Translations under genes and position numbers: made by a program
NCBI RefSeq assembly: GCF_028502605.1
Contig: NC_079233.1
Span: 7,006,001 to 7,070,000 of the forward strand
Direction: 5' to 3'
DNA from: Trichoderma breve
Taxonomy: Eukaryota; Ascomycota; Sordariomycetes; Hypocreales; Hypocreaceae
Length of the DNA: 64,000 nucleotides
The notes under the pieces: model-generated
The model's input: the letters and a program-made list of their open reading frames with translations, nothing else
The model's database searches: none
Told to the model about the DNA's origin: nothing
In this document: one piece after another, positions 9,723-61,527 of the stretch
Position numbering within the stretch: the first letter of the stretch is position 1
Layout: each line of letters opens with the position of its first letter

Positions 9723-12644
9723 TTAAAAAAACACGACGTTCTTTTCAAGGCTCCATCCAAGCTCTTGTAACGCAGAAGAAACATTTGCTTCCATAGCTGG
9801 GGGTCCACAAACTAGCGCCAGCGTATCCTCGAGATCTGCATCAGTGGGTGTAGAAGGTGCTGAAGGGAGGTGCTGTTGGAGACACTCTAATCCAACATAC
9901 CCTCGTCCCATCTTCCAGTCTGCATTCAGTTTCTTGGAACTCAGAACATGCCACATGTGGAAATTTCCCTTCATGACATGCCAGAGCTGATCGAGCTCTT
10001 CGCGAATGAGGATGTCTTCTTCCTCTCGATTGGCATAGACGAGCCATACCTCGACGCGGTTGACCTGTTCAGACGACGCGCAAGCCGAGTACTCGTCTGC
10101 AATGGCCTTTAATGTGGTCCACATTGGAGTAATACCACTGCCACCGGCAATCATCGCAAGCTTCTTGACATTGCGGATAGAATTATTCGGCTTCCATTGC
10201 ACCCGATTATCACCGATGTATGTAAAATGGCCGATGGGACCCTTCAATTCCACCGTGAACTCACTGGTGTTTGTGTTTACTACCATATTTTCGAGTAGCA
10301 TGGTCATTTGTCCTCCTGCAAAAGGACTCTTTTGCGATAACTCGTTTGATGGAAAGTACACTTTGATGAGAAGATCGATAAAGCCACGCTGGGTACTGCC
10401 GCTATATGGAGTATATGCTCGCTGCACAATCTCTGTTTTACCAGTTGTTTTGTCGAACTTCTTTATCCGAAGATACACGTGCTGTCCCACTGGCAGACCG
10501 AGTGGTTGGTCTTCATGAGGCAGGGCGAAACGAAAGATTCGCGAGTCATGAGAGACCTCTCTCTTTTGTACTAGAAGAACATTCTTCCACACCTTGGGTT
10601 CCAAAAATGGCTTGGATGGATCATCTTGAGGCTGAGGGCTTGCTGCCATTGCAGATCTCGATGATTCTGAAGGTTGTTCCAGCTTACCAATGTGGTAATC
10701 CCTCAACATTTTCTTCGCATCCATGGAGTGAATGGCCATGAAGTCTTCTGTAGCATCCTCACCAGCTGCTAAACGAATGGACTGTTCTCCGCCAGGGTGA
10801 GCCGAGAGAAAACCAGTGCCATCATATACGTGGCCTTCAACAACAAACCAAGGCGATGGACCTTCGCCGTCGGCGTGCTCCGCGAGCTCGGCCGCAGTAA
10901 CAAGCACTGACACTTTGTCTGGGTTTATCATGACGCTCTTGGCTTCTTCGTCCGCCTGGGGTCCCTGCGCCTTACTCGAGTCTTCGGCGATGGCGCTGGA
11001 AGTTGGGCTGTTTTCTCCCAGACGAGGGAACTTTGGGTTCATCCCAGCTTCCTTCATACGCTGCATCCAACCTCCACTTGCGTTGCCAGGCACGGTAGGA
11101 TGTTCAAATCGAAGAGTCTGGCCGTTGTTCTCCCCATGGACAGCGACTCGAAACCACCACGAATTCATCATAGAAGTAGCATTCCAGTACATGTCCCGTG
11201 GCATGATGCTTAACGCTTCATCCATTGCTCGCACCATAATGAACCCAGCATCTCGAATTGCTAGCAGCGACTTGACGTCAATCTCAACTTTCCAGAAGCA
11301 CCAGGAAAAACTCATATCTGTCGTGCTCAAATCAAGCTTGCCAAAGTAAGGATGGTGTTCAATCGGATAACTTCGGTACAGATCCTCTGGATAGGTTATG
11401 TCACAGAGTTTCCACGTGTCTCCATCGTCGAGTGTCGCCTCTACTCGAGTTATACGTCGTCCACCACCCGTGTACGCGTATCCCTCTACTGTAATTGTCT
11501 GCGTCATAGAGGCATCAGATTCCACTTGCAGTGTGTCATTGTGGGCAGGTGAGCAAACTGCCGCGTTCACGTTCAGCTCATTGATGATGTATTTAGGATC
11601 GTACCACCATTTGTCTTCATTCCTTGCTTGATCTGCTGTTACTGTGGTAGGAAGAAGCTTGTTGTCAAAGAAATGCAAGTGATGCTGACTCTCACAGTCG
11701 GAAACCTCTATTCGTTGGAGCCATTTGACCATTCGTCCACCAATTTGACCTGGGACAACCAATCTAAGAGGATAGCCGTGATCCGGAGAAAGATCCTCGC
11801 CGTTGAGGCCCCAAGATATCAGCATGCTCTTGCTACGGTCCAATGCCCAGCTGAGCCTCTGAGATGTGCCGTACTTTCCTTTCGGAAGCTCATCGGCGCC
11901 CTCAAAGATGACGTGACGAGCACGTCCGGGGACAGGCTTGTCATAAGAGGGATATGCGGAGAGAAGAGGGTTTTTCGGTTTGCAGTAGGCGAGAATATCG
12001 GCCAAGTATACACCTGTAAAGAGACCAGTGGATACACCAGCGGCACCCCAATTGAATCCTAGCCCCTTCACTACCATATTTTGCTCCTTCCGGCGGTTGC
12101 CAGCACAGACGAGCGTCACGGGCAGCGTGACAACCGGGAACTTTTCTTTCAGATCCTGAATCGAGAATTCCAATTCCTCCTCAACAAGTCCATGGATTCG
12201 GAGTTTCCAGTCTTGTGCTTGCTTCAAGCTGATTCGTGGTGTATCTCCATGACTTCGAACATAGAATAGGTTCTGGGGAGTAAGGAACCCAGCTTTGAAC
12301 AATGCAGACAAGGGAGCCTCGACATTACACGGATGTTTTCCCGTCAGTCGAATCATCCGGGCATCTCGTGCAATCCAATGGTCAGGCGTTTGAGAGTCGG
12401 TGGAGAGTGGTTGGATAGGTTCGGTTTTCGGGATAGGAGGGAGTGGAATGTCGTCATTGTCTGACGTAGAAGACTGTAACGGAGCATCATGGACAATTTG
12501 AACCGACTGTAGTTTTGCTGTTAAGCGTGGACTACGTGATTGTGGTGTTGTTGGTGCCGATGATTCAGGAGATGATGGCAAGGACGAGGACCAGTCCTCT
12601 CCACTCTCAGAGCGAGAGTCTGATACCAACTGATCCGTTGCCAT
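9723..12644 (-). CDS. niaD: Nitrate reductase [NAD(P)H]
   Basis: Intronless 973-residue protein that reduces nitrate to nitrite in the cytosol. The order is the usual one. A Ser/Pro-rich N-terminal tail of about 85 residues comes first. The molybdopterin domain follows, with Cys180 in TLVCAGNRR as the Mo ligand. The Mo dimerisation domain runs to about 540. The cytochrome b5 domain is about 573-655 (HPGG at 616-619; His616 and His639 bind heme). The FAD domain has RAYTPYS at 742-748. The NAD(P)H domain has GGSGITP at 834-840 and CGPPAME near 946, and the chain ends in FF. Length fits fungal nitrate reductases such as Neurospora nit-3. It is divergent from niiA across a 1.2-kb promoter with NirA- and GATA-type sites, so nitrate induction and nitrogen repression are expected. 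Lack of introns is notable against the intron-rich neighbours. Confidence 0.97.
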   Translation of the reverse strand: MATDQLVSDSRSESGEDWSSSLPSSPESSAPTTPQSRSPRLTAKLQSVQIVHDAPLQSSTSDNDDIPLPPIPKTEPIQPLSTDSQTPDHWIARDARMIRLTGKHPCNVEAPLSALFKAGFLTPQNLFYVRSHGDTPRISLKQAQDWKLRIHGLVEEELEFSIQDLKEKFPVVTLPVTLVCAGNRRKEQNMVVKGLGFNWGAAGVSTGLFTGVYLADILAYCKPKNPLLSAYPSYDKPVPGRARHVIFEGADELPKGKYGTSQRLSWALDRSKSMLISWGLNGEDLSPDHGYPLRLVVPGQIGGRMVKWLQRIEVSDCESQHHLHFFDNKLLPTTVTADQARNEDKWWYDPKYIINELNVNAAVCSPAHNDTLQVESDASMTQTITVEGYAYTGGGRRITRVEATLDDGDTWKLCDITYPEDLYRSYPIEHHPYFGKLDLSTTDMSFSWCFWKVEIDVKSLLAIRDAGFIMVRAMDEALSIMPRDMYWNATSMMNSWWFRVAVHGENNGQTLRFEHPTVPGNASGGWMQRMKEAGMNPKFPRLGENSPTSSAIAEDSSKAQGPQADEEAKSVMINPDKVSVLVTAAELAEHADGEGPSPWFVVEGHVYDGTGFLSAHPGGEQSIRLAAGEDATEDFMAIHSMDAKKMLRDYHIGKLEQPSESSRSAMAASPQPQDDPSKPFLEPKVWKNVLLVQKREVSHDSRIFRFALPHEDQPLGLPVGQHVYLRIKKFDKTTGKTEIVQRAYTPYSGSTQRGFIDLLIKVYFPSNELSQKSPFAGGQMTMLLENMVVNTNTSEFTVELKGPIGHFTYIGDNRVQWKPNNSIRNVKKLAMIAGGSGITPMWTTLKAIADEYSACASSEQVNRVEVWLVYANREEEDILIREELDQLWHVMKGNFHMWHVLSSKKLNADWKMGRGYVGLECLQQHLPSAPSTPTDADLEDTLALVCGPPAMEANVSSALQELGWSLEKNVVFF

Positions 12645-13001
12645 ATTTTTTGTACTGCAATAACAAAGGGAATTTGTATGGCCTAATTAAAAATGAAAAT
12701 CCTCTCAGTGATAAATAGAGTTTAACGGATCTCTCTTAAAGAGATAAATGACAGTATCAGAGTGTAAGACGGCGAGAGAATCACCATATGAATCATAAAC
12801 TGGTAGCTGCAAGAGGAGGAAGCACACAGGAATTCATGATCACCTAAAAGTTGACAATGACAGCAGTATTATTTCTGGCTAAACTTTGAGAATTTACTGA
12901 CTTCATCCCATTATTCTACCGTATAGTCGATATTACAATCATGCCACCTAAAACGCGAGAGTCAATAATACCATATTGCTGACACCCTTACGATTCGCAT
13001 T

Positions 13002-13009
13002 CTCCGTGG
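13002..13009 (+). promoter_or_regulatory. NirA-type site CTCCGTGG
   Basis: Perfect match to the Aspergillus NirA consensus CTCCGHGG, inside the shared niaD-niiA promoter and closer to niaD. Confidence 0.65.
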
Positions 13010-13270
13010 ACTATTTCGGCTAAAGCTTGAACTAAGCCCACCCTAGGGGTTTCCCATAACGCAACCCAACTTACCCTGGTGAGGCTGTGGCCAATAAGAG
13101 TCCAGCGATAACGTCCCAGCAAGTTGCTTGCTTATTTCGGTAGTTTTCCCATTCGCCTCCTGTATAACGACGGCCAGCCCAGATAAACGGATGGAGCCTT
13201 TGCCAGACAACTTGGGAGTACGGACAAGCATACCCCATACTCTTGCTAAATCGCTATCTAGATTGGGTTT

Positions 13271-13278
13271 CTCCGCGG
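13271..13278 (+). promoter_or_regulatory. NirA/NIT4-type site CTCCGCGG
   Basis: Perfect NirA consensus. It overlaps TCCGCGGA (13272-13279), the symmetrical octamer described for Neurospora NIT4. It lies in the middle of the promoter. Confidence 0.7.
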
Positions 13279-13671
13279 AACTACTAGCGCGTCAGCTCAT
13301 GCAGTTAATATGCCAAAGTGTAATGGAATCTAGCCAGACGACAAATAGATAAGTGAATATCATGATCCAGCCTAAGCAAGAGATAACAACAGAGATCTCA
13401 TTAAACGCGCGCTATGTGCATCATTATCACTGCAACCCTACCTATACTATCATCAATTACGACTATTATCTCCAATCTATTGTCTATTAGTGATGATCTA
13501 CTTGCTCCGGCGGGACGTTGTATCTTAGTTTATCTGACATTGGACACCTATCTAGTAGAGATAAATGATGAACTCAAACTCTTCCGAGGAGATTGACGGA
13601 CAAAGCTTATAATGCTACTGTGTACGGAAGAAGGATTCTAATCTGTCATACACAACTTGTGTAACACAAGT

Positions 13672-13679
13672 CCTCGGAG
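13672..13679 (-). promoter_or_regulatory. NirA-type site CTCCGAGG (minus strand)
   Basis: Plus strand CCTCGGAG, a perfect NirA consensus on the minus strand, about 190 bp upstream of the niiA ATG. Confidence 0.65.
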
Positions 13680-13867
13680 TGCTCACGTTGCCTTTGTGTC
13701 CCCCACGACAAGGAAGTTTGCGTTGTCTCGAATGCCTCGTTGCTGGAGGAGAGGGAGATGTCATGCCCACGCTTTTCAATAAAACTATTCACCTTGCCAG
13801 AACAGTATGTTCGACTTCTGAATAGGTGTCATGCTTTCTCCAGAGATTCCCGACTTAAAACAATAAA

Positions 13868-16800
13868 ATGAATGGAGTAGTTCGCGCCACCCAGCCGGGG
13901 TCAGAGATCCTTCCGCAACGACCAAAGAAGCGTGCTGCTGTTGTTGGGCTTGGCATGGTTGGCATTGCCTTTATTGAAAAGCTTCTCAAATACGATATCG
14001 ACAGCGGCCGAGATGAGTGGGAGGTGACTGTTTTCGGCGAGGAACCTCACATCGCATATAATCGTGTTGGTCTCACACAATACTTTACGAACCGCTCTAC
14101 CGAGAGTCTTTACCTCAACCCGCTACAATGGTATTCATCACATGCCGAGGGAAAACTCACATATCATACATCGGACCTTGTGGTTTCGATTGACAGCCAT
14201 GCCAAATCTCTCAAAACCGCTAATGGGTTGCATTTCCAATACGACGAGTGCATCCTTGCTACCGGTTCTAATGCGGCCTTGCCACCATATATCTCACTAC
14301 AACAATTCCAGAATACCAGAGGCACTTTTGTATACAGAACGATCAAGGATCTTGATGATATCATCGGGTATGCAGTAAATGCGCCCAGTGTCATTGGGCG
14401 TCGCATTCGCAAAGCAGCCGTCATTGGCGGCGGTCTCCTTGGATTGGAAGCGGCCAAGGCTCTCCTTGATCTTGAAGAAGTAGACCAAGTTGTACTGGTA
14501 GAGCGAAACCGCTGGGTACTTAGTCGTCAGCTTGATCAAGAAGGTGGAACGCTAGTACTGGAAAAAGTCAAGTCTCTTGGTGTTGAAGTTCTGCTTCAAG
14601 CTCGAGTTCGAAATCTCTTATTGAACGATGACGAGAGACTCACTGGCCTCCTTCTTGAGGGGAAGGATGGGCTGCCGGACCAAGAATGCGAAGTTGACAT
14701 GGTCGTATTTGCTGTCGGGATTAAACCTCGCGATGATCTCGCCGCAAGTACTCCCATAACGGTAGCCAGCCGAGGCGGTGGTTTTATCGTCGACAATCAC
14801 CTCCAGACCAACTTGTCTCACATCTATGCTATTGGAGAGTGTGCCAACTTTCTTGACGAAACATTTGGTTTAATCGCTCCTGGTATCGAGATGGCTGAGG
14901 TTCTAGCCTTCAACTTGACGGAAGGACCCTACCACAGCATGAGAGAGTTGAAAGCTCCCAACATCAGCACCAAACTCAAATTAATGGGAGTCGATGTCGC
15001 TTCCTTTGGCGATTTCTTTGCGGATCAGGGAAAGATAAGCAAACCACTACCAGGAGCAACCAGTGCTCATGCAGCTCGCAAGGCTCAAGCAATGCCCCCA
15101 ACTCCAGAAGAAATAAAGAAAAAAGTCAAAGCATTGACATATCGGGACCCTTTCTCGGACGTTTACAAGAAATACATCTTCACGGCAGACGGCAAATACA
15201 TCCTCGGAGGCATGATGGTTGGCGATGTAAAAGACTATGTCAAACTCGTGGGCCTGTGTAATACAGGCAAACCCATCGAAAAGCCTCCCGCCGAATTCAT
15301 CATCGGTGCCGCAAAGGAGGGAGAAGAGGAAGGTGACGATCTGCCCCATGATGCTCAGGTCTGCAGCTGCCACAATGTTAGTAAAGGCGACATTGTGGAG
15401 TGCGTGAAGACTGGCGGTATTCGTTCTTTTGGAGAGATGAAATCCTCAACAAAGTGCGGAATGGGATGCGGAGGCTGTGTGCCCTTGGCTACTAGCATCT
15501 TCAACAAAGCGCTCAAGGACGCTGGTGTTGAAATCTCCAATCATCTCTGCAAGGATTTTCCCTACTCGCGACAGGAACTATACCAAATCATCAAATTCAG
15601 AAAGCTCAAAAAATTTACCGCAGTGATGAAGGCCGTCGGGAAAAAGACTGACGGCCTTGGCTGTGAAGTTTGCAAGCCGGCGGTTGGATCAATCCTTAGC
15701 TCCTTATACAACGAGAACATCATGAAACCTTCACTGCGCCAGACGCAGGATACAAATGACCGATACCTCGCCAATGTACAGCGCGATGGTACTTATTCGG
15801 TTGTTCCACGTCTCCCCGCTGGTGAGATTACACCAACAGGACTCAAGGTCATTGGAGAAGTCGCGGAAAAATTCGGATTATATACCAAGATCACAGGTGG
15901 CCAGCGCATCGACATGTTTGGTGCAAAGAAACAAGATCTCCCCCAGATTTGGGAGCTGCTCATCAATGCCGGCTTTGAGAGCGGTCATGCTTATGGCAAG
16001 GCACTTCGCACAGTCAAGTCATGTGTAGGCAATACCTGGTGCCGATTTGGAGTCGGCGATTCGGTCGGTCTTGCTGCTGAAGTCGAGAATCGCTACAAGG
16101 GCCTGCGGGCGCCCCATAAATTCAAAGGCGGTGTATCCGGCTGCGTTCGTGAATGCGCCGAAGCACAAGGCAAAGACTTTGGTCTCATCGCGACGCCAAA
16201 GGGATGGAACATCTTCGTAGGCGGTAACGGCGGCGCAAAACCTCGCCATGCTGAACTGCTAGTTGAGGACGTTACCCGACGAGAAGCGATTAAAATCCTT
16301 GATCGCTTTCTTATTTTTTACATTCAATCAGCGGACAAGCTCGAGAGGACAGCGCGCTGGATTGAAAAGTACCCCGGTGGCCTCAAGGGCCTGAAAGAGG
16401 TTATTGTTGACGACAAGCTTGGCATATGTGCCGACTTGGAAAAGGAGATGGAGATACTTGTTGGTTCATATCACTGTGAATGGACCAATGTTGTCAACAA
16501 TCCAGAGCGACGCAAGGCCTTCAAACAGTTTGCCAACACAGACGAAACTCAGATCGTATCCGAGAAGATCACTGAGCGGGCACAGGAACGCCCTGTAGAC
16601 TGGCCTGAGGACAGTTCACCTCTTCACTTCAGTCTGCTAGATATTGCTAAAGATGCCAAGTGGGAATGGCGATCTATCTGCAAACTTTCCAATTTGGACC
16701 GCCAGAGTGATGCGCCAACGTCAGTAGCCGTCAAATATGGCGAAGTTCAGTTGGCTGTGTGGAACATACCTGGCCGGGGTCTACGCGCATCACAAAATAT

Positions 16801-17227
16801 GTGTCCTCATAAGAAAGCATTTGTGTTAGCGGACGGCCTAGTAGGTGAGGATGAGCAGGGCCGAGAATATGTATCCTGTCCATTACACAAGAGGAATTAC
16901 TTGTTGAATCCTAATCCCGCTGAGGGAGGTGGAAGCTGCTCGGACACCAACTACTCTATTATGACCTTTGAAGCCAAGGCAGACGAGGAGAATGATGCTG
17001 TACTTCTCTATCTTCCTCCTACAGAGGCACTAGATGCAGTACTATCAACAACCAAGTGGATGCTACGGAAAGCAGGTGAAGAGCTGAGGCTCTTAGTGAA
17101 GGATTCAGATCAAGCGGTTGAGATTGTAGAGCCGCTTCCGCTCGGCAAGATGATAGATCCGCTGTCAAGCGCGGCTCTAGCAACCCCAATTAAAGTTTGT
17201 GGTGGTAGCGGCGCACTTGATTGGTAG
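13868..17227 (+). CDS. niiA: Nitrite reductase [NAD(P)H], assimilatory
   Basis: Intronless 1119-residue protein that reduces nitrite to ammonium. An N-terminal FAD/NAD(P) module has VVGLGMVGIAF near residue 25 and a second dinucleotide fold (AVIGGGLLGLEAA) near 184. A BFD-like [2Fe-2S] domain begins at Cys499/Cys501 (CSCHNV) and ends in CGMGCGGC. Two ferredoxin-like nitrite/sulfite reductase halves surround the siroheme-4Fe4S ligands Cys719, Cys725, Cys759 and Cys763. A C-terminal Rieske domain has CPH at 979-981 and CPLH at 1004-1007. All cofactor ligands expected for the fungal enzyme are present, and the length matches Aspergillus niiA and Neurospora nit-6. It is transcribed away from niaD, with the nitrate transporter next on the same strand, so uptake and both reduction steps are clustered. 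Confidence 0.97.
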   Translation: MNGVVRATQPGSEILPQRPKKRAAVVGLGMVGIAFIEKLLKYDIDSGRDEWEVTVFGEEPHIAYNRVGLTQYFTNRSTESLYLNPLQWYSSHAEGKLTYHTSDLVVSIDSHAKSLKTANGLHFQYDECILATGSNAALPPYISLQQFQNTRGTFVYRTIKDLDDIIGYAVNAPSVIGRRIRKAAVIGGGLLGLEAAKALLDLEEVDQVVLVERNRWVLSRQLDQEGGTLVLEKVKSLGVEVLLQARVRNLLLNDDERLTGLLLEGKDGLPDQECEVDMVVFAVGIKPRDDLAASTPITVASRGGGFIVDNHLQTNLSHIYAIGECANFLDETFGLIAPGIEMAEVLAFNLTEGPYHSMRELKAPNISTKLKLMGVDVASFGDFFADQGKISKPLPGATSAHAARKAQAMPPTPEEIKKKVKALTYRDPFSDVYKKYIFTADGKYILGGMMVGDVKDYVKLVGLCNTGKPIEKPPAEFIIGAAKEGEEEGDDLPHDAQVCSCHNVSKGDIVECVKTGGIRSFGEMKSSTKCGMGCGGCVPLATSIFNKALKDAGVEISNHLCKDFPYSRQELYQIIKFRKLKKFTAVMKAVGKKTDGLGCEVCKPAVGSILSSLYNENIMKPSLRQTQDTNDRYLANVQRDGTYSVVPRLPAGEITPTGLKVIGEVAEKFGLYTKITGGQRIDMFGAKKQDLPQIWELLINAGFESGHAYGKALRTVKSCVGNTWCRFGVGDSVGLAAEVENRYKGLRAPHKFKGGVSGCVRECAEAQGKDFGLIATPKGWNIFVGGNGGAKPRHAELLVEDVTRREAIKILDRFLIFYIQSADKLERTARWIEKYPGGLKGLKEVIVDDKLGICADLEKEMEILVGSYHCEWTNVVNNPERRKAFKQFANTDETQIVSEKITERAQERPVDWPEDSSPLHFSLLDIAKDAKWEWRSICKLSNLDRQSDAPTSVAVKYGEVQLAVWNIPGRGLRASQNMCPHKKAFVLADGLVGEDEQGREYVSCPLHKRNYLLNPNPAEGGGSCSDTNYSIMTFEAKADEENDAVLLYLPPTEALDAVLSTTKWMLRKAGEELRLLVKDSDQAVEIVEPLPLGKMIDPLSSAALATPIKVCGGSGALDW

Positions 17228-18417
17228 AAATGCTGACTGACCATGAACTTGCGGTATCTCGTCTGTTCAGGGTAATTTTCTGTACTTTACTATCGTATTA
17301 ATGCGGGATTCATCTCTGCTGTAATATTGGCACTTCTCGTAATCGTGAGTGAAAACGCCCATGAGAACAACATCGGCTCAATAATTGCTCCTTAATATTG
17401 TGTTTACTGTAGCTTCATTACGGTCGGGTGCAATCCAACCGATGGCTGTCAAGCTGTGTATGGGTGACTCTGAGACTAAGTAATCTTCTAGTCATACTGG
17501 CCATGAAAACTAAAATATCAGCACTACTCACCTCTTTGTTGGTTCTTGGCTCTCCTTATCTCTGTTATACGGGAAGGAACTTACTTATCAGCACAAATTT
17601 CCACTACCACTACTACGACCTAGCTCTCCTAAGCCGGCATGGATTTGTTGTTCAACCCCCTCACTAGCCTATCACCGTATGTTCTCTTATCAGTGCTACT
17701 ATAACCTACCCTTCACCCCTCCCTGTGATGATCCCGGAACATTCAGGGTAAATATTGTCGGGGAGTTAGAGACTCATACCCTCGATAACGTGTTAAGCAG
17801 GTATGAGGAGGATCGGAGATTTACAACCATATAGATATGCCGTGATGGAGGTGTCTTAGCCTTTGCCCCTGGTAAAAAGGGTACTATGTTACTACCCCTA
17901 GTGAGGGCTGTACGTGTTAGAGTAGAATTTTGCATCTCCGGTTGGATTATCTCTGTATCAATAAGCGATAAGCACTCATGTGCTATTCTAGGCTCTTATC
18001 TGCCTTTAAGTTGTATCTTAGATGAGCCTCCTACGATGTATGCAATACGATATCACAGGCCTGCGTTTGCCATTATGATGCATTATATAGGATATTTAAG
18101 TCGACGATGAAATAGAATGAGAATATTGTAAATTCTGAGTAAGAGCAAATACTTTGTGTCTCTAATTCACTCTTCTACTTGGATAATAATTCAAGCTCTT
18201 CTGAAGAACTGCAATATCTCTTCTATCAAAAGCAAGGTTAGTCTCTATATTTTTCTTGAAGAGTTTCACAGTATTAATAATGCCAATGTGGCAGCATCAA
18301 GAACGAGAAAATAGATATATCAACACAAAACTCTCGCGGACCCTCAATCCCTTCAACCTATAGACTGGACCTCAAGATTCCTTCTTATCTCTTCATAATA
18401 CAGAACGGAAAGGAGAC
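17228..18417. other. Intergenic niiA-nrtA with transporter promoter
   Basis: Contains the niiA 3' flank and the upstream region of the transporter. Several GATA cores are visible (for example around 17686, 17782, 17965 and 17997). I found no perfect CTCCGHGG site on either strand. A short ORF at 17886-18110 has no supporting features. Confidence 0.5.
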
Positions 18418-20214
18418 ATGCCACGGACTTTGGATGTGGAGGCAGATATTGCCTCCAGCACATCGCAGTCTACCATTCAAGATGACAAGAAGACATATCA
18501 AATCACCAACAACCAATCACCATCCATTACCAGTGGATCTCATCGGAGCGTATCCTTTTCGCAGCACAACGGGATCGACAACACTAGTGATTCTGTTAAC
18601 GGCCGAATAACAACAGAGAAGGGCAAACAATGGAAAAGCACATCCGGCGGTGACCATAAGTTCCGGTGGTCATCACTTTGGCGAAGAGCCGAAATCAACC
18701 CTTTAAATGGAAAAAGTCTTACATTTCCTCTTTTTCGAGTATGGGACGACTCCTATTCCCAAGCGTTCTGGCTCGCTACTCTAGGATTCTTTGTGGCCTT
18801 TCTTTCTTGGTTTGCTTTTTCTCCGCTTGTTCCTGAGGCTGTGAAGACGGATCTAAACCTCACCCAAGATCAAGTTACCAACTCCAACCTGGCTTCTCTT
18901 GGTGGCACGGCCCTTGTCCGTCTCATTGCTGGCCCAGCTTGTGATAAGTTTGGTCCTCGAAAAGTACTGGCCGCCCTACTCATTCTGGGTGCAATCCCAT
19001 CCGGCTTCGCGGCGTTGGTAACGAATATTCAAGGCCTAGAGGCGGTGCGATTTTTCATCTCTATCCTTGGCGGTACCTTTGTTCCAACCCAGGCGTATAC
19101 AACTACCTTTTTCGATAAATCCATTGTTGGTACAGCAAACGCGTTTTCCGGTGGCTGGGGTAACCTAGGTGGTGGTGTTACTGTTGCTGTGATGATCGGA
19201 CTATACCAGCGATACATTAAGGCCGGTTTAAGTTCCCACCTCTCGTGGCGTCTCTGTTTTGTTACGGTTCCCGTACCATGCCTTGTCCTTGTCGCTATCA
19301 TCATTTTAATATTCGGAAAAGACCAACCGGGTGGTAAATGGTCAGCTCGCCGAAAACTCCAGACCACTGTTATGGAGGAAGGCAGAGGGAAACAAAATGG
19401 ACTGAGACTTCAAGGAGCTGCCACTCAAGAACAGATAATTGTGGATTCTGGCGACGAACTTACCCCAAATTCCACCAACCCCAAACCACTGAATGCGACA
19501 TCTGGAGAGCAGCCTACCCAAGTTAGTGTTGAGAGTGCACATTCTGAGCCGTTGACAATGGCAGCGCTGCTCGCCATTCTCATCGATCTCCGCGTCTGGG
19601 CGTGCGCTATGTGCTATTTACTCACTTTTGGTCTCGAGACAGCAATGGACGCGGCTCTCCCTGGCTTAATTTTTAGTTTGTTTTCCAGCGAGACATTTAC
19701 CATCTCTGATGCCGCTTATGCAGCATCAACCTACGGTCTTATGAACTTGTTTGCTCGGCCGATGGGTGGAATTATATCAGACATTCTCTACGCTCGATTT
19801 GGACTGCGAGCTAAGATGTACTGGCTCCTAGGTACAGCTCTCTCACAAGGAATCGCAATGATCGGCCTAGGAGTCTACATAAACAAAAATCATGCAACTA
19901 TCGGCGGCGTCATTGGTTTTATTGTGTTCATTGCAATCACTGGCTTTGCAGCCAATGGCGCCTGTTACTCAATCTACGGCCATCTGCGGCCAAAGAACAT
20001 CGGTGCTGTTGCAGGCATTGTTGGTGCTGGCGGCAATATTGGCGGTCTGTTTTACACCTTAATATTCAAGTATCAACCAGGAGTTCGTCTGCCGCCATCT
20101 CAGATTCATCCTCATGGTTTCAATTCTCTAGGGAAAAAGTTTTGGATTGCAGGGCTATTCAACGCGGTGGCTGTCGTGCCACTTTTCCTTGTGCGGTTGG
20201 GCGATGCCGTATGA
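18418..20214 (+). CDS. nrtA: High-affinity nitrate transporter (NNP family, MFS)
   Basis: Intronless 598-residue membrane protein that imports nitrate (and probably nitrite) with protons. It has a Ser/Thr-rich cytosolic N-terminus of about 105 residues, then 12 predicted helices. Both nitrate/nitrite porter signatures are present: GGWGNLGGG in helix 5 and GAVAGIVGAGGNIGG in helix 11. The MFS motif lies in AGPACDKFGPRKV. A long, hydrophilic central loop (about residues 300-385) is typical of fungal CrnA/NrtA, where it takes part in regulation. It forms the third member of the nitrate cluster after niaD and niiA. Residues 1-105 are longer than the tail I expect for Aspergillus CrnA; an internal start is possible, but the ATG at 18418 is the first in frame. 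Confidence 0.93.
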   Translation: MPRTLDVEADIASSTSQSTIQDDKKTYQITNNQSPSITSGSHRSVSFSQHNGIDNTSDSVNGRITTEKGKQWKSTSGGDHKFRWSSLWRRAEINPLNGKSLTFPLFRVWDDSYSQAFWLATLGFFVAFLSWFAFSPLVPEAVKTDLNLTQDQVTNSNLASLGGTALVRLIAGPACDKFGPRKVLAALLILGAIPSGFAALVTNIQGLEAVRFFISILGGTFVPTQAYTTTFFDKSIVGTANAFSGGWGNLGGGVTVAVMIGLYQRYIKAGLSSHLSWRLCFVTVPVPCLVLVAIIILIFGKDQPGGKWSARRKLQTTVMEEGRGKQNGLRLQGAATQEQIIVDSGDELTPNSTNPKPLNATSGEQPTQVSVESAHSEPLTMAALLAILIDLRVWACAMCYLLTFGLETAMDAALPGLIFSLFSSETFTISDAAYAASTYGLMNLFARPMGGIISDILYARFGLRAKMYWLLGTALSQGIAMIGLGVYINKNHATIGGVIGFIVFIAITGFAANGACYSIYGHLRPKNIGAVAGIVGAGGNIGGLFYTLIFKYQPGVRLPPSQIHPHGFNSLGKKFWIAGLFNAVAVVPLFLVRLGDAV

Positions 20215-54137: not shown

Positions 54138-55078
54138 ACTATTATAAATTAATTAAATGATGCAATAGCTTTGCAAGAACCGTCTCAGTTATTACGGATT
54201 CTTTTGCTTGCAAATAGAAGTGATATGCATTACAAGATAATTTAAATGAACTCCCAATTACAATTGTAACCGTGTTGAGAGATTTCCTCTTATCTGAATA
54301 ATTTCACACTTCGGCTATGTCATATATTGCGCCATATAATCCACTACCGTCAACGCCGTATCATTTTTTCACTGCCCCTAGTTACTGCGAAGATGAGCGG
54401 GCAGCGGGAACACAAACGAGCAACCTACCCAAAAACAATAGTGCCGCAAGTTTTCCATAAGACTAATAACGTTTTCCACCTAAAATCAGATACCTCCAGT
54501 TATTTACACGCCGATATCGGGTGTTACATGTCAACCCCTCGATAGCGGATCAGATTTTCCGTATTATAAGCCACCTACATAACAAAAAGGGAAGCTAGCG
54601 ATTGGTAAGCATCTTTAAGAGGAATAGATCATCGATCGAGCCTAATCTTCTTGATACATGACATAATATTAATTACCTCATAATGCTTTACTCGGACAGA
54701 AGGATCATCGCCTAGACGCGGATTTGGGTTCAGGTGTCAGAAGGGCGCGCCCAGCGGATGTGCTACAAATGATGTTGACGCTAAAACTATTCGATATTGG
54801 TCTATCTTGGTTGTAACATGAGTAATTGGCATGTTTTCTTCTCTTCCTATGCATGCCCGTTACGGACTGCTTAGATGAGCCGTTCGTCGAAAGCCATCTG
54901 AGCGCACCTTGGTGGTGGATGGTTATGGGGCTGGTTGCGTGATTCCCTATGTAAATGGCAATACTCCCTGGATATTATCGGCTCTAATTGCTATGATGAT
55001 GGAAACAAATATTTTCCAGATATTTAAGATAGATAATACTGCCCCTCTCTCCAAGTAGGCATATCAATTTTGTTCTTC
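54138..55078. other. Intergenic, aminotransferase promoter
   Basis: FAH-family 3' flank and BCAT promoter. No gene seen. Confidence 0.5.
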
Positions 55079-56352
55079 ATGAGTCAAAGAAACCCATTAC
55101 ATCGAATGGCATCTCTAGCGAACGACGATGGGCTCGAATGGCCAAAGTTGCATAACAATGGCACCGAGGCGGCTGCAATAATAAATACGCCAATCAAACC
55201 TTTGGATAATTTACAAACAAATTGCACAGAGCACATGCTTATCTGGCAGTGGGACGAATCTACAGGTTGGCAGGCTCCCGAAATCCGACCATACGGACCA
55301 CTTCCTATAATGCCCAATGCCAGCGTTCTTCAATACGCAACAGAATGTTTTGAGGGCATTAAAATCTACCGAGGGCATGACGACCGGCTACGAGTTTTCC
55401 GATTGCAGCTCAATTGTGAGAGGATGCGCAAGTCATCTCTTCGTGTGGGATTACCTGAGTTTGATACAACTCAGTTCGAATCTCTTTTGATGCAATTTGC
55501 TGCCCTTGAGGCTGAGAAATGGCTTCCTAGCGGCAAAACCGGTCAAACGTTATATCTACGTCCAACTCATATCGGGTTGACGGCGGCCCTAGGTGTTCAA
55601 AAACCTCGACAGTCTTTGCTGTATGCCATTGCTACTTTGCTTCCAGGTTTCACCACCAAGGGGAATGGTATGAGATTGCTCACCTCCCCAGCCGAAGCTG
55701 TTCGGGCTTGGCCGGGTGGCTTTGGGAATCGAAAGCTTGGGGGAAATTATGGGCCTACACTACCGGCACACGATGCAGCTCTTCAGAGAGGTTTCGATCA
55801 AATACTTTGGCTTTTCGGCCCAGAGGGATTTGTCACTGAGGCCGGCGCAAGTAACTTTTTTGTCGTATGGAAGACGAAAAGTGGCGATGTTGAGCTCGTC
55901 ACTGCAGGCCTAGACAATGGCACAATTCTGGAGGGTGTTACCCGTTACAGCGTTTTGGATCTCGTGCGATCTAATCGTAACAAACCTTCAGCGTGGTATC
56001 ATCGGGGTCACACGCTGCCTCCTTTGACAGCCACTGAAAGAGACTTCACCATAGATGAGGTACAAGATGCTGTGAAAGAAGGTCGGCTGATCGAAGCATT
56101 CGCAGCAGGAACTGCGGTAAGTTCATGTCAAGATGTAACCCCAGATTAAGACAACGATGCAGATAGCTAATTGGATGACCATAGTATTTTATTGCATCTG
56201 CTGAGGCAATACATCATCGAGGAAAGGATATACCGATCCCGCTTCCAACAGCAGAATCCGCATCATATGCTCAACTGATCAAAGAATGGCTATCGGATAT
56301 CGTTTTCGGCGTAGAAAGCCCTCATAAATGGACGAAAGAAATTTCTCTGTAA
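55079..56352 (+). CDS. Branched-chain amino-acid aminotransferase (class IV)
   Basis: Spliced protein of 401 residues with one intron (56117-56184). It has the fold-type-IV PLP pattern: HMLIWQWDESTGWQAPEIRPYGPL, LQYATECFEGIKIYRG, LYLRPTHIG, and NRKLGGNYGPTLPAH with Schiff-base Lys219, then TEAGASNFFVVWK, LDNGTILEGVTR and EAFAAGTA followed by spliced YFIASAEAIHHRGKDIPIP. The enzyme interconverts Leu/Ile/Val and their 2-keto acids. The first ATG (55079) gives a short N-terminus with little sign of a mitochondrial signal; a second Met is at 55106. As an extra paralogue in an accessory region it may feed keto acids or amino acids to local metabolism, perhaps with the 2-keto-acid decarboxylase at 45.6-47.9 kb. 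Confidence 0.92.
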
Positions 56353-56706: not shown

Positions 56707-57571
56707 CTAAGAGCTAAATTCATCAGCCTCGCGGGCGTGATTCTTGTTTCCACCCTTCTTAGCAGCGGCCTTCTCTTTAGCAGCGATCTGGGCTTCAGTG
56801 TGGTGAGGGTCTCGCCTGGTAACCCAAGAACCAAACTCATCATCCTCAGGAACCTCATCAGCCTCGCGAGAATGGTTCTTCTTTTCACCCTTCTTCTGAG
56901 CAGCGGCGGCCTCCTTGGCCGCAATTTGGGCCTCTGTGTGATGAGGTGCACGTTTATCAGCCCAGGATCCAAACTCATCATCCTCGGGAACCTCATCAAC
57001 GTCCCGGGCATGGTTCTTCTTTCCTCCCTTCTTAGCGGCGGCAGCCTCCTTGGCGGCAATTTGAGCCTCGGTGTGATGAGGCTCTCGCTTATCAGACCAA
57101 GACCCGAATTCATCATCTTCGGGTACTACAGTCTCACGAGCATTATTCTTCTTTCCACCTTTGTTCTTGGCAGCAGCCTCCTTGGCAGCGATTTGGGCCT
57201 CAGTATGGTGAGGTGCACGCTTATCAGACCAAGACCCGAACTCATCATCTGCGGGAACCTCATCAGCCCCACGGGCATGGTTTTTCTTTCCACCTTTCTT
57301 GGCAGCCGCCTGTTCTTTGGCAGCAATTTGGGCCTCGGTATGGTGGCGAGCTTCAACTCCTGGGATAACGGAGCGTACCAGCTTGGTGGCTAGAGCTGCA
57401 GCAGAACCCTAACAAACTCCGTTAACTTGATTCAATTATCCTCGCAATCGACAGACTCACAACATATCGGCGCTCGAGGTCTACAGATCCAGCTGTTGGG
57501 AGGCCGGCAGCGAAAGGGGCCAAGCCAAGAAGGCCCAAAACCAAAGCATTGGTAGCTGAAGTGGGACGCAT
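56707..57571 (-). CDS. Kex2-processed repeat precursor, candidate fungal RiPP (dikaritin-type) precursor
   Basis: Spliced protein of 270 residues with one intron (57409-57460). It has a signal peptide (MRPTSATNALVLGLLGLAPFAAG), a short pro-region with ERR at about residue 35, then five tandem repeats of 43, 44, 45, 46 and 34 residues that fill the rest. Each repeat opens with HHTEAQIAAKE, continues with an Ala/Lys/Gly stretch, and repeats 1-4 end in an acidic-aromatic block (P-E/A-DDEFGSW) two residues before KR (three times) or RR (once). Repeat 5 lacks DDEFGSW and ends EADEFSS. Signal peptide plus dibasic-spaced repeats with an aromatic, acid-flanked segment is the design of UstA/PhomA-type precursors, and two UstYa genes lie beside it. 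Cross-linking of the F/W residues is inferred. The alternative is a linear Kex2-released secreted peptide family. A long ORF on the opposite strand is a shadow. Confidence 0.8.
56710..57345 (-). repeat. Five tandem coding repeats (129, 132, 135, 138 and 102 bp)
   Basis: On the minus strand the units are 57345-57217, 57216-57085, 57084-56950, 56949-56812 and 56811-56710. Unit length grows by one codon from each of the first four to the next, through insertions in the Ala/Lys stretch. The HHTEAQIAAKE start and the DDEFGSW block are the most constant parts; the last unit is truncated before the block. Confidence 0.9.
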
Positions 57572-58423
57572 GGTGATGAAGATTTGAAGAATATGTAAAG
57601 AAAAACTGAAGGAAAGTTATAAACGTTGATGCTTAACAAAAAGGGTAAAAGAAAGAAAGCAAAACTAGACTGGCCGGCAGTCAAAGAATAGTAGAAAAGG
57701 AAAGAAGAAGGATGAGATGAAGAATGAAGTGATGAGTGGGAACCGAAAATCAGAAAAGAAGGTAAACCCAAGAGTACTTTATAGGCCCTCGAGTACACTG
57801 ACTCTATGCGGACAGCCGTAATAACTGGTTCACTCAGCCATACAAGATCGTCTGCTCAGGTATCATCAGAAACTTGATTGAAACGGGATATTCCATCAAT
57901 CGCTTTGCCAAAATCTAGAAGCGAGTACCGATTGAAACTCACTATCGAGATTGTACCGAGGCTTTTGGAGTTCTCTAGACTGTTCTCCGGAGTGGTTTTA
58001 CCACAATACTCCAGTTTCAGGTTGGGTCGCGTCAAGCGCTGGTATCATATGAGGCTATGAAACGGTCGCTATTTCAGATAGCTGTAAAATATGAGCGATA
58101 TACATCTAGCTGTTTGAAAGTTCGTTGATCTTTTTTTTTCTTAGTCGTCGCTTGCTAACCGCCCCGTTTAAAGGTACGTCGTTTAACATTGTCCCTTTTC
58201 AACTTTTGTAACCGTTCGAGTTTCGTTTTGCCAAGGCCAGCCCGCTATCCACTTCCCCCCTGCGCGGCTGAGGAGCCCCAATGACTAGATCGTTCCAGTG
58301 CAGCTCCCGTTGGGATCCCTTTTTTGTTCATGAAAATCCCAAGATTCAACATAATAAACAAAAAAAATTATTCCCTAAAGTTTTTCATCCAATTCCATTA
58401 TACTCATTTTCCTTTACGCTACT
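57572..58423. promoter_or_regulatory. Shared promoter of the precursor and first UstYa gene
   Basis: An 852-bp gap between divergent start codons. It holds a TATA box for the precursor (57777-57783, minus) and a perfect 8-bp palindrome CTCCGGAG at 57985-57992, a plausible Zn2Cys6-type site. Divergent arrangement favours co-expression of substrate and enzyme. Confidence 0.6.
57777..57783 (-). promoter_or_regulatory. TATA box of the precursor gene
   Basis: TATAAAG on the minus strand, about 210 bp upstream of the ATG at 57571. Confidence 0.4.
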
Positions 58424-59431
58424 ATGGCTTTCGAATATCAACACCTTGAAGCATCTTTGGCTAGCGAGAAGCTTAGCCGTTTATCGTCCGACTCTACTTC
58501 AACTCTGCAGGCAATTGATGATCTGGACTATTTATCGGACAATACAGAATTGGGTTACAAAATCTCAATCCGCGAATCAGCTTCAGGATGGATTAAATCG
58601 AAATGGCCCTGGGTTGCACATGCAGCTTTGCTTATTATCTCGTGCGGGATGCTCGCCAGCACTCTAATATTGCGATCATCCACCCTGCTTCTTGTTCGAC
58701 AGATTTCTGCTTGGTGTAAGTGATGTATATTGAATCAAATGGACACAAAATAACTAAGTAATACGCAGCGCCCGCCGACATCTCTGTGCAATACGATCAT
58801 GTTCGATACAACCTTACAACAAAGGGCAATCCCTTCGTAGGTGCTGGCCCCGAAGTCGATAGAGTTTGGAGGGAGATTTCGTACGATAGTGAGTATACAA
58901 TCAAGTAAGCAAGTATTAACAGACTCTAATAACTGTGTGAAAGTGGGCGACCAGTGGATATCAAAGTCCGACTTATGGAAGTTGGACATGCCAGAGACTT
59001 CGCTCAAGACCAACCATCCTACCACTGGGGAGGAAGGGTACAGAGTTGGCATGGAAGTCTTTCACCATTTGCACTGCCTCAATCTTCTGCGACGAGTCAC
59101 CTATAAGCAATACTACGAACCTCTTGGTGGAGAGTTTGCCCATGGCCCGGAAGCCCTCCAAGCACACACAGGTATGTTTGCACTTTTTGTCGACGGCATG
59201 ATGAACACATTGAACATGCCTTGCTCACTCGTTGTAGATCACTGTATCGAAGTACTCCGCCAAAATATTCAATGTAACGCGGATATCGGACTCTTCACCT
59301 TCTATATGATTCCAGACGATCCACTTGCCTGGCCCGAATTGAACTCGAAGCATGTTTGTCGAAATTTTGACAATGTGCGCAAGTGGGCGCTAGACCACTC
59401 AGTTGGAAATATGGAGGTGCTGGAGGACTAG
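58424..59431 (+). CDS. UstYa-family (DUF3328) oxidase-type protein
   Basis: Spliced protein of 277 residues from four exons, with introns 58716-58768, 58889-58943 and 59172-59237. It has an acidic cytosolic N-terminus, one membrane helix at about 64-84 (WVAHAALLIISCGMLASTL) and a lumenal domain. The two hallmark motifs are present: HHLHC (178-182, followed by LNLLRR) and HTDHC (212-216, followed by IEVLRQ and later NIQCNAD). The second HxxHC appears only after removing the third intron, which is 66 bp with no stop and so is hidden in the open frame. UstYa proteins are tied to oxidative macrocyclisation of ribosomal peptides in ustiloxin, asperipin and phomopsin pathways. The gene is divergent from the repeat precursor, which is its likely substrate. 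A 19-base A run follows the stop by 11 bases. Confidence 0.9.
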
Positions 59432-60469
59432 ACGAACTCTGTAAAAAAAAAAAAAAAAAAACATGTAGCCTTGAATTTACAACAACAACAACGACAACAA
59501 CGACAACAACGATACTCTCATCCTAATCTCCAGGTGTGTGCATTCGGTCTTAGATGCCTTCATGTGATTAATCCTTAAATACGGATTTTATGTGTTGTAT
59601 GTTCATAGCCTACAATTGGATACAATGTGTCTATAGGTAGTTGTGGCTCATTCTTCCTAACATTAATTAAGCACCGCTCATCTGAACTCGGAGGTTCGCT
59701 TGCGTTCTGATCGCCTAACAACTTAATACTCAACTAAAACAGCTACCTAGCTTAAACCCGATCTTTCACTACATGAAAATCACGCCTATCTATCAGAATT
59801 TGATTCAATAGCTCCTAGGCAAGTAATATTTAATACGTTGCAAACTACAGGGTAATATACATCACCCTTCTCAGTCTATACACCGCAAGCGACTACACCG
59901 CAAGCGACGCCTTAAATCCGGCCCGCAGCGCTACCCTTCGGGTGCTATCCTGAAGTTTGCTTAGTGCCGGACTATCAGGTCTGGAGTAAATACACTAGAA
60001 CTGTCGGGTTTAGTTGGTATGAACAGTGGGTTTGCGGTCGCGTAGCTAGCTTTGGCGAAAAAAGACGACCCCGTTTCAACTGCTTTAATTCCAGTATTTC
60101 GCCGATCTCCAGGCCACTCAAACGCTTGTTGCATAGTTTAGCGAATGTCTCTGTTCCGCATAGAGGGTTTTCTTTTAGGGGGTTTGTTTCATGCAATAAG
60201 TTCTTGTGAGAGATTCTGTTCGCCTCAAACGGTAAAAGTTTTGGCTGTGTACTAGTTTAGGAGGGGCGATGTGGTTTGCACTAGTTTCAGCAATTCGGCG
60301 GCTATTTCACTTCTCTATTTCCTAAACACCTTCCTCGCTGCATCACTGCGTTTCTTAAATCATTTGCTAGTAGGGGAGGCGTTAGCTTTTTTTTTCTTCA
60401 TTTCATTCTTGTACAATCATTGTCTTTCTAAATTCTATGCATGTTCACCATCTGGATTTTGGTGACACT
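59432..60469. other. Intergenic between the two UstYa genes
   Basis: Contains an A19 run (59443-59461), an ACAACAACG-type microsatellite (59479-59511), a 15-bp tandem duplication TACACCGCAAGCGAC (59879-59893 and 59894-59908) and the promoter of the second UstYa gene. An 81-codon open frame at 59964 begins with GTG and has no features. Confidence 0.6.
59479..59511. repeat. ACAACAACG-type microsatellite
   Basis: Short run of CAA/CGA units just downstream of the first UstYa gene and its A19 tract. Confidence 0.6.
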
Positions 60470-61527
60470 ATGGCATTCGCTGGGAAATACTGCAAACTCG
60501 AAGGAGACGACCATTTTCACGAGAGTGGAGAAGATCTAGAAGAAAACAAACCCAGTTCAAGCAGGTCTTCATCAATCACCAACTTCTTCAACAGGACGAA
60601 TGCCCTTCCTTTCAGAGATAACGCAGATTTAGCGACACCCTACCTAACACAACACACAACGACAAAGGCCGGGGCGTCCACCAACTTCTGGACGTGGCTA
60701 CGATGGGGAATTGTCGTTGGGCTTCAGACAACTTTGATCATACTAATTTCCATAAAGTCGAGTAATAACACAAGAAATCTTCAAGACTTAGCCGCAGGCG
60801 GCGAATTTGTTGAAACAGGCAGTGACATAAATGGCATTTACAAAACTCGTGAGTACCACATTGTCAGCGTCGGGCTTCTCCATTCTAACCATTAGGTAGT
60901 ATCGCACACGTACACATATCTCAAGCCCGAAGAAGATAAATACGTGCCGAACATGACATCAAATGATAATCGCATGGAAATTCGGAAAAATTGGGATATG
61001 CTGATGCCACGTACGAACCCGATAATTCGCTGTCGACGTTATAATAAGATGTGCTAATAATATTTATAGTTGGGAGCGGAAGTGTCCTTATTCCCGACTA
61101 CCGGGATCACCCTTTGCTTGGAGATCCTATTACAGATGACCCGAATCGTTCCGGACCGTTATTTGAAGCGTCATGGACGCACGCATTACACTGTGTTAGT
61201 CTATGTTGCTCCCGCTCGTTTCTATCTGTCAATATTCCTTTTCTAATCGTATTAAATCCCTTGTAGCTATATTACAGCGTGGATAGTTACCACCAGTTGA
61301 TAGTGAATGGACCCAGCGAAGACGATAACCCGAGACATGCCGCCCATTGTTTCGAGTATCTTCGAAATAGTATTCTATGCAATCTTGACATGACCTTGGA
61401 AGGATCCATGTCAACGCCAGATGATAAAGAAAGAGGACAACCTCATGTTTGCCGAAACCGAGAAGAGGCTATCTCTTGGATCGAAGCTAGGAGAATGGAT
61501 GATGCACAGGACATCGTTGGCCCCTAG
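60470..61527 (+). CDS. Second UstYa-family (DUF3328) protein
   Basis: Spliced protein of 291 residues from four exons, with introns 60849-60899, 61011-61069 and 61195-61266. The ATG at 60470 (MAFAGKYCKLEGDD) was chosen because its ACTATGGC context equals that of the first UstYa gene; an ATG at 60437 would add 11 residues. It has an acidic N-terminus, a membrane helix at about 78-98 (WLRWGIVVGLQTTLIILISI) and a lumenal domain with HALHC (201-205, followed by LYYSVDSYHQLI) and HAAHC (229-233, followed by FEYLRNSILC). The spacing and FEYLRNSILCNLDMTLEG match UstYa relatives in cyclic-peptide clusters. Two different UstYa paralogues acting in sequence is usual for dikaritins. Same strand as the first copy, 1 kb apart. 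Confidence 0.88.

Follow-up and report, generated by a model that had tools for sequence, protein, structure and literature searches.

A precursor gene lies divergent from two UstYa-family genes

The window, the whole 64,000-nucleotide stretch of Trichoderma breve DNA that was analysed, contains a precursor gene (KEP) oriented away from a gene for a UstYa-family oxidase (U1), which is followed by a second such gene (U2). KEP lies on the reverse strand (56707..57571) and encodes 270 aa in an open spliced frame with consensus splice sites. Its two exons (57571-57461 and 57408-56707) flank a 52-nt intron (57460-57409, GTGAGT...TTAG), and splicing yields RRYVGS, which is the same in relatives P0001 and P0002. 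The N-terminus is hydrophobic, its top 13-residue window (LVLGLLGLAPFAA) reaching a mean KD hydropathy of 2.23, and forms a putative signal peptide of the kind that defines a KEP. The divergent region between the gene models of KEP and U1 (57572..58423) is presumed to be a shared promoter.

Both oxidase genes lie on the forward strand and have four exons each. U1 (58424..59431; exons 58424-58715, 58769-58888, 58944-59171 and 59238-59431) encodes 277 aa, and U2 (60470..61527; exons 60470-60848, 60900-61010, 61070-61194 and 61267-61527) encodes 291 aa. Both pass the Pfam cut-off for PF11807 (UstYa), with E-values of 1e-48 for U1 and 1.1e-14 for U2. UstYa enzymes are binuclear-copper oxidases, a class defined recently. 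U1 carries two HxxHC motifs, HHLHC and HTDHC, at residues 178 and 212, and U2 carries HALHC and HAAHC at residues 201 and 229; each protein additionally has a hydrophobic stretch of membrane-helix size (19-residue means of 2.03 and 1.8, respectively). A sequence search with U1 gave no credible match to a relative of solved structure. Protein searches, in which only representatives are shown, listed 98 relatives of U1 and 77 of U2. Among the 48 U1 relatives of at least 250 aa, 13 show a single HxxHC by pattern; in 12 of these the break falls at the HT/DHC exon junction, as expected of mis-spliced models, and in the remaining one, P0057, Pro replaces the first His. As a separate observation, a UstYa-like gene of T. 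reesei (105220), not tied to U1 or U2, has a log2 change of -4.48 in the reported data (PMC10459490).

The precursor array combines two modules

The KEP body consists of five units, each of which holds one copy of HHTEAQIAAKE (57313..57345, 57178..57210, 57046..57078, 56911..56943 and 56773..56805, copies 1 to 5, all on the reverse strand). The second module, DDEFGSW, occurs in four of the five units (57229..57249, 57097..57117, 56962..56982 and 56824..56844, reverse strand). Among 1000 shuffles of the KEP body, only two contained any exact 7-mer twice. Specifically, copy 1 of HHTEAQIAAKE directly follows a single Arg (AR), whereas copies 2 to 5 are preceded by KR-AP, KR-EP, KR-AP and RR-DP, respectively.

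The architecture put forward in the original prediction, a secreted five-repeat precursor divergent from one UstYa gene and followed by another, with HxxHC motifs and membrane helices, is borne out by these gene models. Two details need correction. The Kex2-type dibasic sites are found ahead of repeats 2-5, but not ahead of repeat 1; and although there are five units, the element common to all of them is HHTEAQIAAKE rather than DDEFGSW.

The unit recurs in several fungal classes

KEP has 45 protein relatives at E <= 1e-3, which rules out a unit unique to the T. breve genome. At least 10 of the 45 lie on the same contig as a listed U1 or U2 relative, a lower bound because only cluster representatives are shown. 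Linkage was called from locus tags and matching contig sizes; for Xylogone, T. gracile and T. chlorosporum, whose JGI-style 'DRAFT' numbers may not be positional, it relies on matching contig sizes. In Lachnellula hyalina, a KEP with only the HH module and a U2 relative are on separate contigs (LHYA1_G007466 and LHYA1_G004311). Sordariomycetes, Leotiomycetes, Eurotiomycetes, Dothideomycetes and lichen fungi share HHTEAQIAAK almost to the letter. As judged from these sequences, the KEP-U1-U2 linkage recurs in several fungal classes, in line with the conserved synteny expected of a UstYa-linked, Kex2-processed repeat precursor; precursor relatives spread widely without UstYa neighbours, the pattern that would have spoken against such a cluster, were not seen in the testable minority of the 45.

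Trimming signatures point to the histidine module

Of the 232 copies of HHTEAQIAAK in 46 KEPs, 212 match it letter for letter. In all 231 testable copies (the one left out has no upstream basic residue) the P1 residue is Arg, but only 121 of the 231 have KR or RR, so that family-wide the cleavage sites are dibasic in just part of the copies. In particular, HHTEAQIAAK is preceded by Arg, either directly or through an in-register (X-Ala/Pro)n lead, in 175 of 175 leads, whereas only one of 84 leads fits this register when the first FGxW past each basic residue is taken. In-register X-Ala and X-Pro pairs after a Kex2 cut are the Ste13 signature of pheromones.

Taken together, these features suggest, with a probability of roughly 55%, a conserved KEP-U1-U2 peptide unit in which Kex2 and Ste13-like trimming frees HHTEAQIAAK peptides, and U1 and U2 oxidise the chain or its fragments. 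Specifically, Kex2 would cleave the precursor after Arg in the secretory pathway, a Ste13-like dipeptidyl aminopeptidase would strip any X-Pro or X-Ala pairs, and a peptide starting with HHTEAQIAAK would be released up to five times per chain, while the acidic DDEFGSW segment would come free at the same time, giving a second peptide restricted to some lineages. U1 and U2, as membrane-anchored, lumenal binuclear-copper oxidases resembling CctR, may act on the HHTEAQIAAK peptides, on the second module or on both. The main product is likely a histidine-rich peptide rather than an aromatic ring peptide. Of the candidate substrates, the HH module is the one conserved most widely, so that cyclisation through Phe/Trp appears no more likely than a modification of His or of aliphatic side chains. 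Likewise, HHTEAQIAAK varies so little over five classes that a conserved role in signalling or metal binding is suggested, and not a diversifying toxin.

A more specific version of this proposal, which we advance tentatively, is a His-based UstYa chemistry, in which a Tyr-free substrate with a free N-terminal His-His, produced by pheromone-style trimming, would receive a His cross-link or a hydroxyl group. If so, few modified peptides of Pezizomycotina would be conserved as widely as this product, and the HH peptide would be a hormone-like signal or a copper-binding peptide, not a toxin. Plant BURP cyclases provide a precedent for copper enzymes that form His cross-links, as described in the source consulted (PMC10206099). 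The predicted mature N-terminus, HHTEAQIAAK, is named exactly and can be searched for by mass spectrometry.

Alternative roles of the aromatic module

The original prediction held that a linear Phe/Trp-containing segment is released and oxidatively cyclised. In its classical dikaritin form, DDEFGSW would be the core, cut at KR and cross-linked by U1 and U2, and HHTEAQIAAKE, which could serve as an enzyme-recognition or spacing element, would be the recognition sequence or spacer. A codon comparison within the one T. breve array gives 15 synonymous and 0 non-synonymous differences among the DDEFGSW copies; the module is under purifying selection inside this array, and may therefore be a second product or even the real substrate. 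Additionally, FG[PSC]W is present in 37 of 46 KEPs, often duplicated as DEFGPW...DEFGSW. However, FGxW is missing from the other nine, which have no Trp, Tyr or Cys beyond the first repeat, and yet intact U2 relatives are still present in Botrytis and Lachnellula, in which the KEPs found are FGxW-less. HH copies outnumber those of FG[SC]W in 35 of 37 FGxW-bearing KEPs, a count that falls to 26 of 37 when DEFGPW and DEFGSW are tallied separately, and the in-register trimming lead is all but confined to the HH module. Moreover, Tyr is absent from both modules, DDEFGSW supplying Phe and Trp. To our knowledge, the ribosomal peptide substrates of characterised UstYa enzymes are Tyr-based. We consider this reading rather unlikely, and DDEFGSW is probably not a universal product; the predicted release and cyclisation of a Phe/Trp segment is weakened as an account of the family, with a second peptide from this module retained as its plausible part.

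It is improbable, although some evidence favours it, that the two oxidases divide the labour, with U2 acting on the ancestral HH module and U1 on the FGxW module. Six KEPs were found in Botrytis, all HH-only, and U2 relatives are named from this genus, whereas no U1 relative named from Botrytis is among the 98 listed, an absence that is weak evidence because the protein search was word-limited and shows representatives only. Against such a division, Lachnellula cervina has a U1 relative, while the sole Lachnellula KEP found, that of L. hyalina, is HH-only. Trees were built from 32 of the 99 rows for U1 and 34 of the 78 for U2, including the window's own, picked for names or long contigs; the rows shorter than 200 aa are Neonectria and Bathelium for U1, and Varicellaria and one metagenome row for U2. 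A split in the U2 tree with support of 100/99, which takes in 18 of the 34 rows, places the seven named genera with FGxW-bearing KEPs, including the Leotiomycete Xylogone, on one side and the two genera with HH-only KEPs on the other, but with the exception of Xylogone it tracks taxonomy as well.

That KEP yields only linear, unmodified pheromone- or hormone-like peptides, the UstYa genes being passengers or part of another pathway, is very improbable: Ste13-type trimming is described as typical of linear alpha-type pheromones (PMC6339444) and the HH peptide is near-invariant, but the same two UstYa subfamilies stay linked to KEP across classes, and the survey discussed below places DUF3328 near most KEPs of the matching type and near almost no pheromone KEPs (PMC7329392).

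Comparison with known systems

The novelty claimed for this cluster type is doubtful. In the survey of Umemura (2020), KEP type G-3 (#6) is described by a di-histidine motif in 64 KEPs from 20 genera of Ascomycota, 57 of which have a DUF3328 gene no more than 15 genes away (PMC7329392). Nine of the 14 named genera of our KEP matches are in its G-3 list and none in the list for G-8, the one further HH type it names; going by description and genera rather than by a comparison of letters, the T. breve KEP family is very probably type G-3. In the description consulted, this type comes without mention of gene order, a trimming signature, a second module or the loss of a module (PMC7329392). The motif letters of KEP were not found in the main texts of the fungal papers searched, apart from one unrelated match, and HHTEAQIAAK is not among the conserved cores in sections 9 and 10 of the main text of Le Marquer 2019; searches of the literature for the gene tags of the unit found no mention. 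RiPP cluster 55 of T. reesei was rejected as the same unit: in the description consulted, a sulfatase gene is the neighbour of its precursor, and the one mention of UstYa is in the background (PMC7099791).

Like CctR, a DUF3328 protein, U1 and U2 have a putative membrane helix, a putative lumenal domain and the HxxHC(x)nHxxHC motif, which in this cyclochlorotine hydroxylase binds two copper ions (PMC12435403). The substrate of CctR is, however, a non-ribosomal peptide, which it hydroxylates.

With the dikaritins (ustiloxin, phomopsin and asperipin-2a) the unit shares a signal peptide, Kex2-cut repeats and neighbouring UstYa genes. It differs from them in having two conserved modules per unit of the array, neither with Tyr, and an HH peptide that is near-invariant over classes. 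The sole tyrosinase-family locus found in the T. breve genome is on another contig (C4). The gene set of asperipin-2a, as far as we know, needs no tyrosinase. In ustiloxin and phomopsin clusters, a tyrosinase is described as required (PMC7329392).

Ascomycete alpha-type pheromone precursors share with KEP the X-Ala/X-Pro pairs that stand in register after a Kex2 cut; KEP differs from them in its peptide and in adjoining UstYa genes, nearly all pheromone KEPs of the survey having no DUF3328 nearby (PMC7329392). Two UstYa oxidases here adjoin a near-invariant, Tyr-free peptide bearing the trimming signature of mating pheromones, and the KEP-U1-U2 unit bridges two classes of KEP kept separate in the published survey (PMC7329392).

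A conserved precursor and UstYa gene unit

Within the genome that carries the window (38.5 Mb, nine contigs), the gene of the Kex2-type repeat precursor (KEP) lies on the minus strand at window positions 57571-56707, and its spliced frame, interrupted by one 52-nt intron, encodes 270 residues. A hydrophobic leader precedes five HHTEAQIAAKE (HH) modules and four DDEFGSW modules, with spacers rich in Lys and Ala. U1 (58424-59431), which is divergent from the KEP gene, and U2 (60470-61527) both belong to the UstYa family by Pfam, and each sequence contains two HxxHC motifs and one hydrophobic stretch. U1 shares 98% identity with a protein recorded under Trichoderma simmonsii, and U2 shares 94-95% with a T. 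lentiforme protein; both species being members of the T. harzianum complex, this places the source within that complex or near it. The gene unit of the original prediction, a five-repeat precursor with two UstYa genes, is real, and it is conserved. Among Trichoderma protein records, the nearest clusters hold 22 (U1) and 19 (U2) member sequences, whereas only four precursors, of one member each, are among the matches listed, suggesting that the KEP gene may be absent from many Trichoderma annotations.

The HH module carries a trimming signature

The KEP set comprises 46 precursors, namely 45 relatives and the window's own, with 232 HH copies, 212 of which read exactly HHTEAQIAAK. Where a basic residue lies upstream (231 copies), the presumed cut-site residue is always Arg, with KR or RR in only 121 of them. 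HH follows this Arg directly in 56 copies, while 175 have a lead of X-Ala/X-Pro pairs; all 175 leads are in register, with lengths of 2, 4, 6, 8 or 10 residues, including 19/19 of the longer ones. When pooled lead residues were shuffled 2000 times, the best shuffle reached 99/175, a null that is generous, the copies being related by descent; the even-length series is the stronger point. In-register pairs between the Kex2 cut and the mature peptide start constitute a Ste13 signature, which predicts a peptide with a free N-terminal His-His.

The second module is absent from some relatives yet selected in the window's Trichoderma

The identical register test before the first FGxW fits only 1/84, although many of these leads hold X-Ala/X-Pro pairs and then an odd residue. 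Moreover, FG[PSC]W is absent from 9/46 KEPs (six from Botrytis/Botryotinia, those of Ciborinia and L. hyalina, and one other). The main product probably differs from DDEFGSW, originally proposed as the released and cyclised core. On the other hand, the DDEFGSW copies in the window array show 15 synonymous and no non-synonymous differences (42 codon comparisons), and the HHTEAQIAAKE copies 59 and none (110 codon comparisons), unlike the nine-codon spacer, for which ungapped comparison gives 31 to 29 differences (90 codon comparisons). This pattern argues that both modules are under selection in the window's Trichoderma, and DDEFGSW may yield a second peptide. Of the 37 KEPs with the second module, 35 contain more HH than FG[SC]W copies, a number that falls to 26 when DEFGPW and DEFGSW halves are counted apart. 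Our preferred reading is that each unit gives two peptides, of which the HH one is older and obligatory.

U2 relatives may constrain the oxidised residue

After the first HH, the nine HH-only KEPs all lack Trp, Tyr and Cys, and six also lack Phe. U2 relatives with both HxxHC motifs occur in Botrytis and Lachnellula; if these act on HH-only KEPs, oxidation must fall on His, on a non-aromatic residue or, for three KEPs, on a lone Phe. A split in the U2 tree (support 100/99, 18/34 rows) separates seven named FGxW-KEP genera from two HH-only genera. It follows taxonomy apart from the Leotiomycete Xylogone, whose place on the FGxW side is what one would expect were precursor and enzyme to move as a pair.

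Both motifs are found by pattern in 35/48 U1 relatives (≥ 250 aa) and 49/53 U2 relatives. Twelve of the 13 remaining U1 relatives break within the second motif where two exons meet, the pattern that mis-splicing in the gene models would give. The powdery mildew U2 relatives P0209 (Podosphaera) and P0211 (Blumeria) have no HxxHC motif and may be inactive or repurposed copies.

Genomic context

UstYa exon matches number 46 in this genome, and 37-38 UstYa-like genes are tabulated in the part of the T. harzianum study consulted (PMC10416523), so a UstYa gene per se is common. A search of the genome found no second full KEP copy, one Kex2-type P_proprotein locus, two DPPIV_N loci and only one tyrosinase-family locus, on another contig (C4). 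At G000:C1:144833-144940 (about 1501-1608 in locus L012) lies a degenerate single-unit look-alike (E 2.7e-4), whose translation contains EDGGFGSYVDRHDTHHTEPQ. Stops lie ahead of it and a signal peptide was not seen; it may be the remnant of a second precursor or a chance match.

A class IV aminotransferase gene (window 55037-56352), with an FAA hydrolase beyond, faces the KEP 3' end with its own; neither shows signs of membership in the unit. Elsewhere, at 9726-17224, a nitrate reductase-type domain set (minus) adjoins a nitrite reductase-type gene (plus), an arrangement resembling a nitrate assimilation pair; an MFS transporter (18364-20211) comes next. A further UstYa match lies ~27 kb past the window end (G000:C2:7097059-7097491), beyond a sulfotransferase gene and an epimerase-type gene. 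The unit is ~76 kb from the end of contig C2, whose last 619 bases (7138000-7138618) show no telomere repeats on reading.

Comparison with known systems

In the excerpts consulted, KEP type G-3 (#6) of Umemura 2020 comprises 64 KEPs with a di-histidine motif from 59 strains and 20 genera; DUF3328 genes lie within 15 genes of 57 of these KEPs, and the other 7 have none in that range (PMC7329392). Its genus list includes nine of our 14 named KEP genera, and the list for G-8, the sole other HH type named there, includes none of them. The unit is thus probably G-3, a circumstantial match by genera, di-histidine motif and DUF3328 neighbours rather than by repeat letters; the UstYa-linked repeat unit holds, its status as a new type probably does not. 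It is probably uncharacterised: the open-licence PMC literature surveyed (motif, KEP/DUF3328 and UstYa topics) contained no recognised characterising study of the HHTEAQIAAK peptide. A survey of lichen RiPPs reports, in the part consulted, dikaritin-like UstY genes in Lecanoromycetes and two clans without an identified repeated core, and names no HHTEAQIAAK-like peptide (PMC12048977).

We infer every step of the simplest order, in which the precursor would enter the secretory pathway, be cut after Arg, have dipeptides trimmed from its leads and be oxidised by U1/U2. As described for CctR in the excerpts consulted, DUF3328/UstYa proteins are dimers anchored in the membrane, and in their lumenal domain HxxHC(x)nHxxHC binds two copper ions; these enzymes use O2 to attack C-H bonds (PMC12435403). 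The sequences of U1 and U2 contain these motifs and a hydrophobic anchor. The HH leads, in turn, match the Ste13 signature reported for alpha-type pheromones (PMC6339444, in part). Taken together, the unit joins pheromone-style trimming and UstYa enzymes with a Tyr-free His-His peptide.
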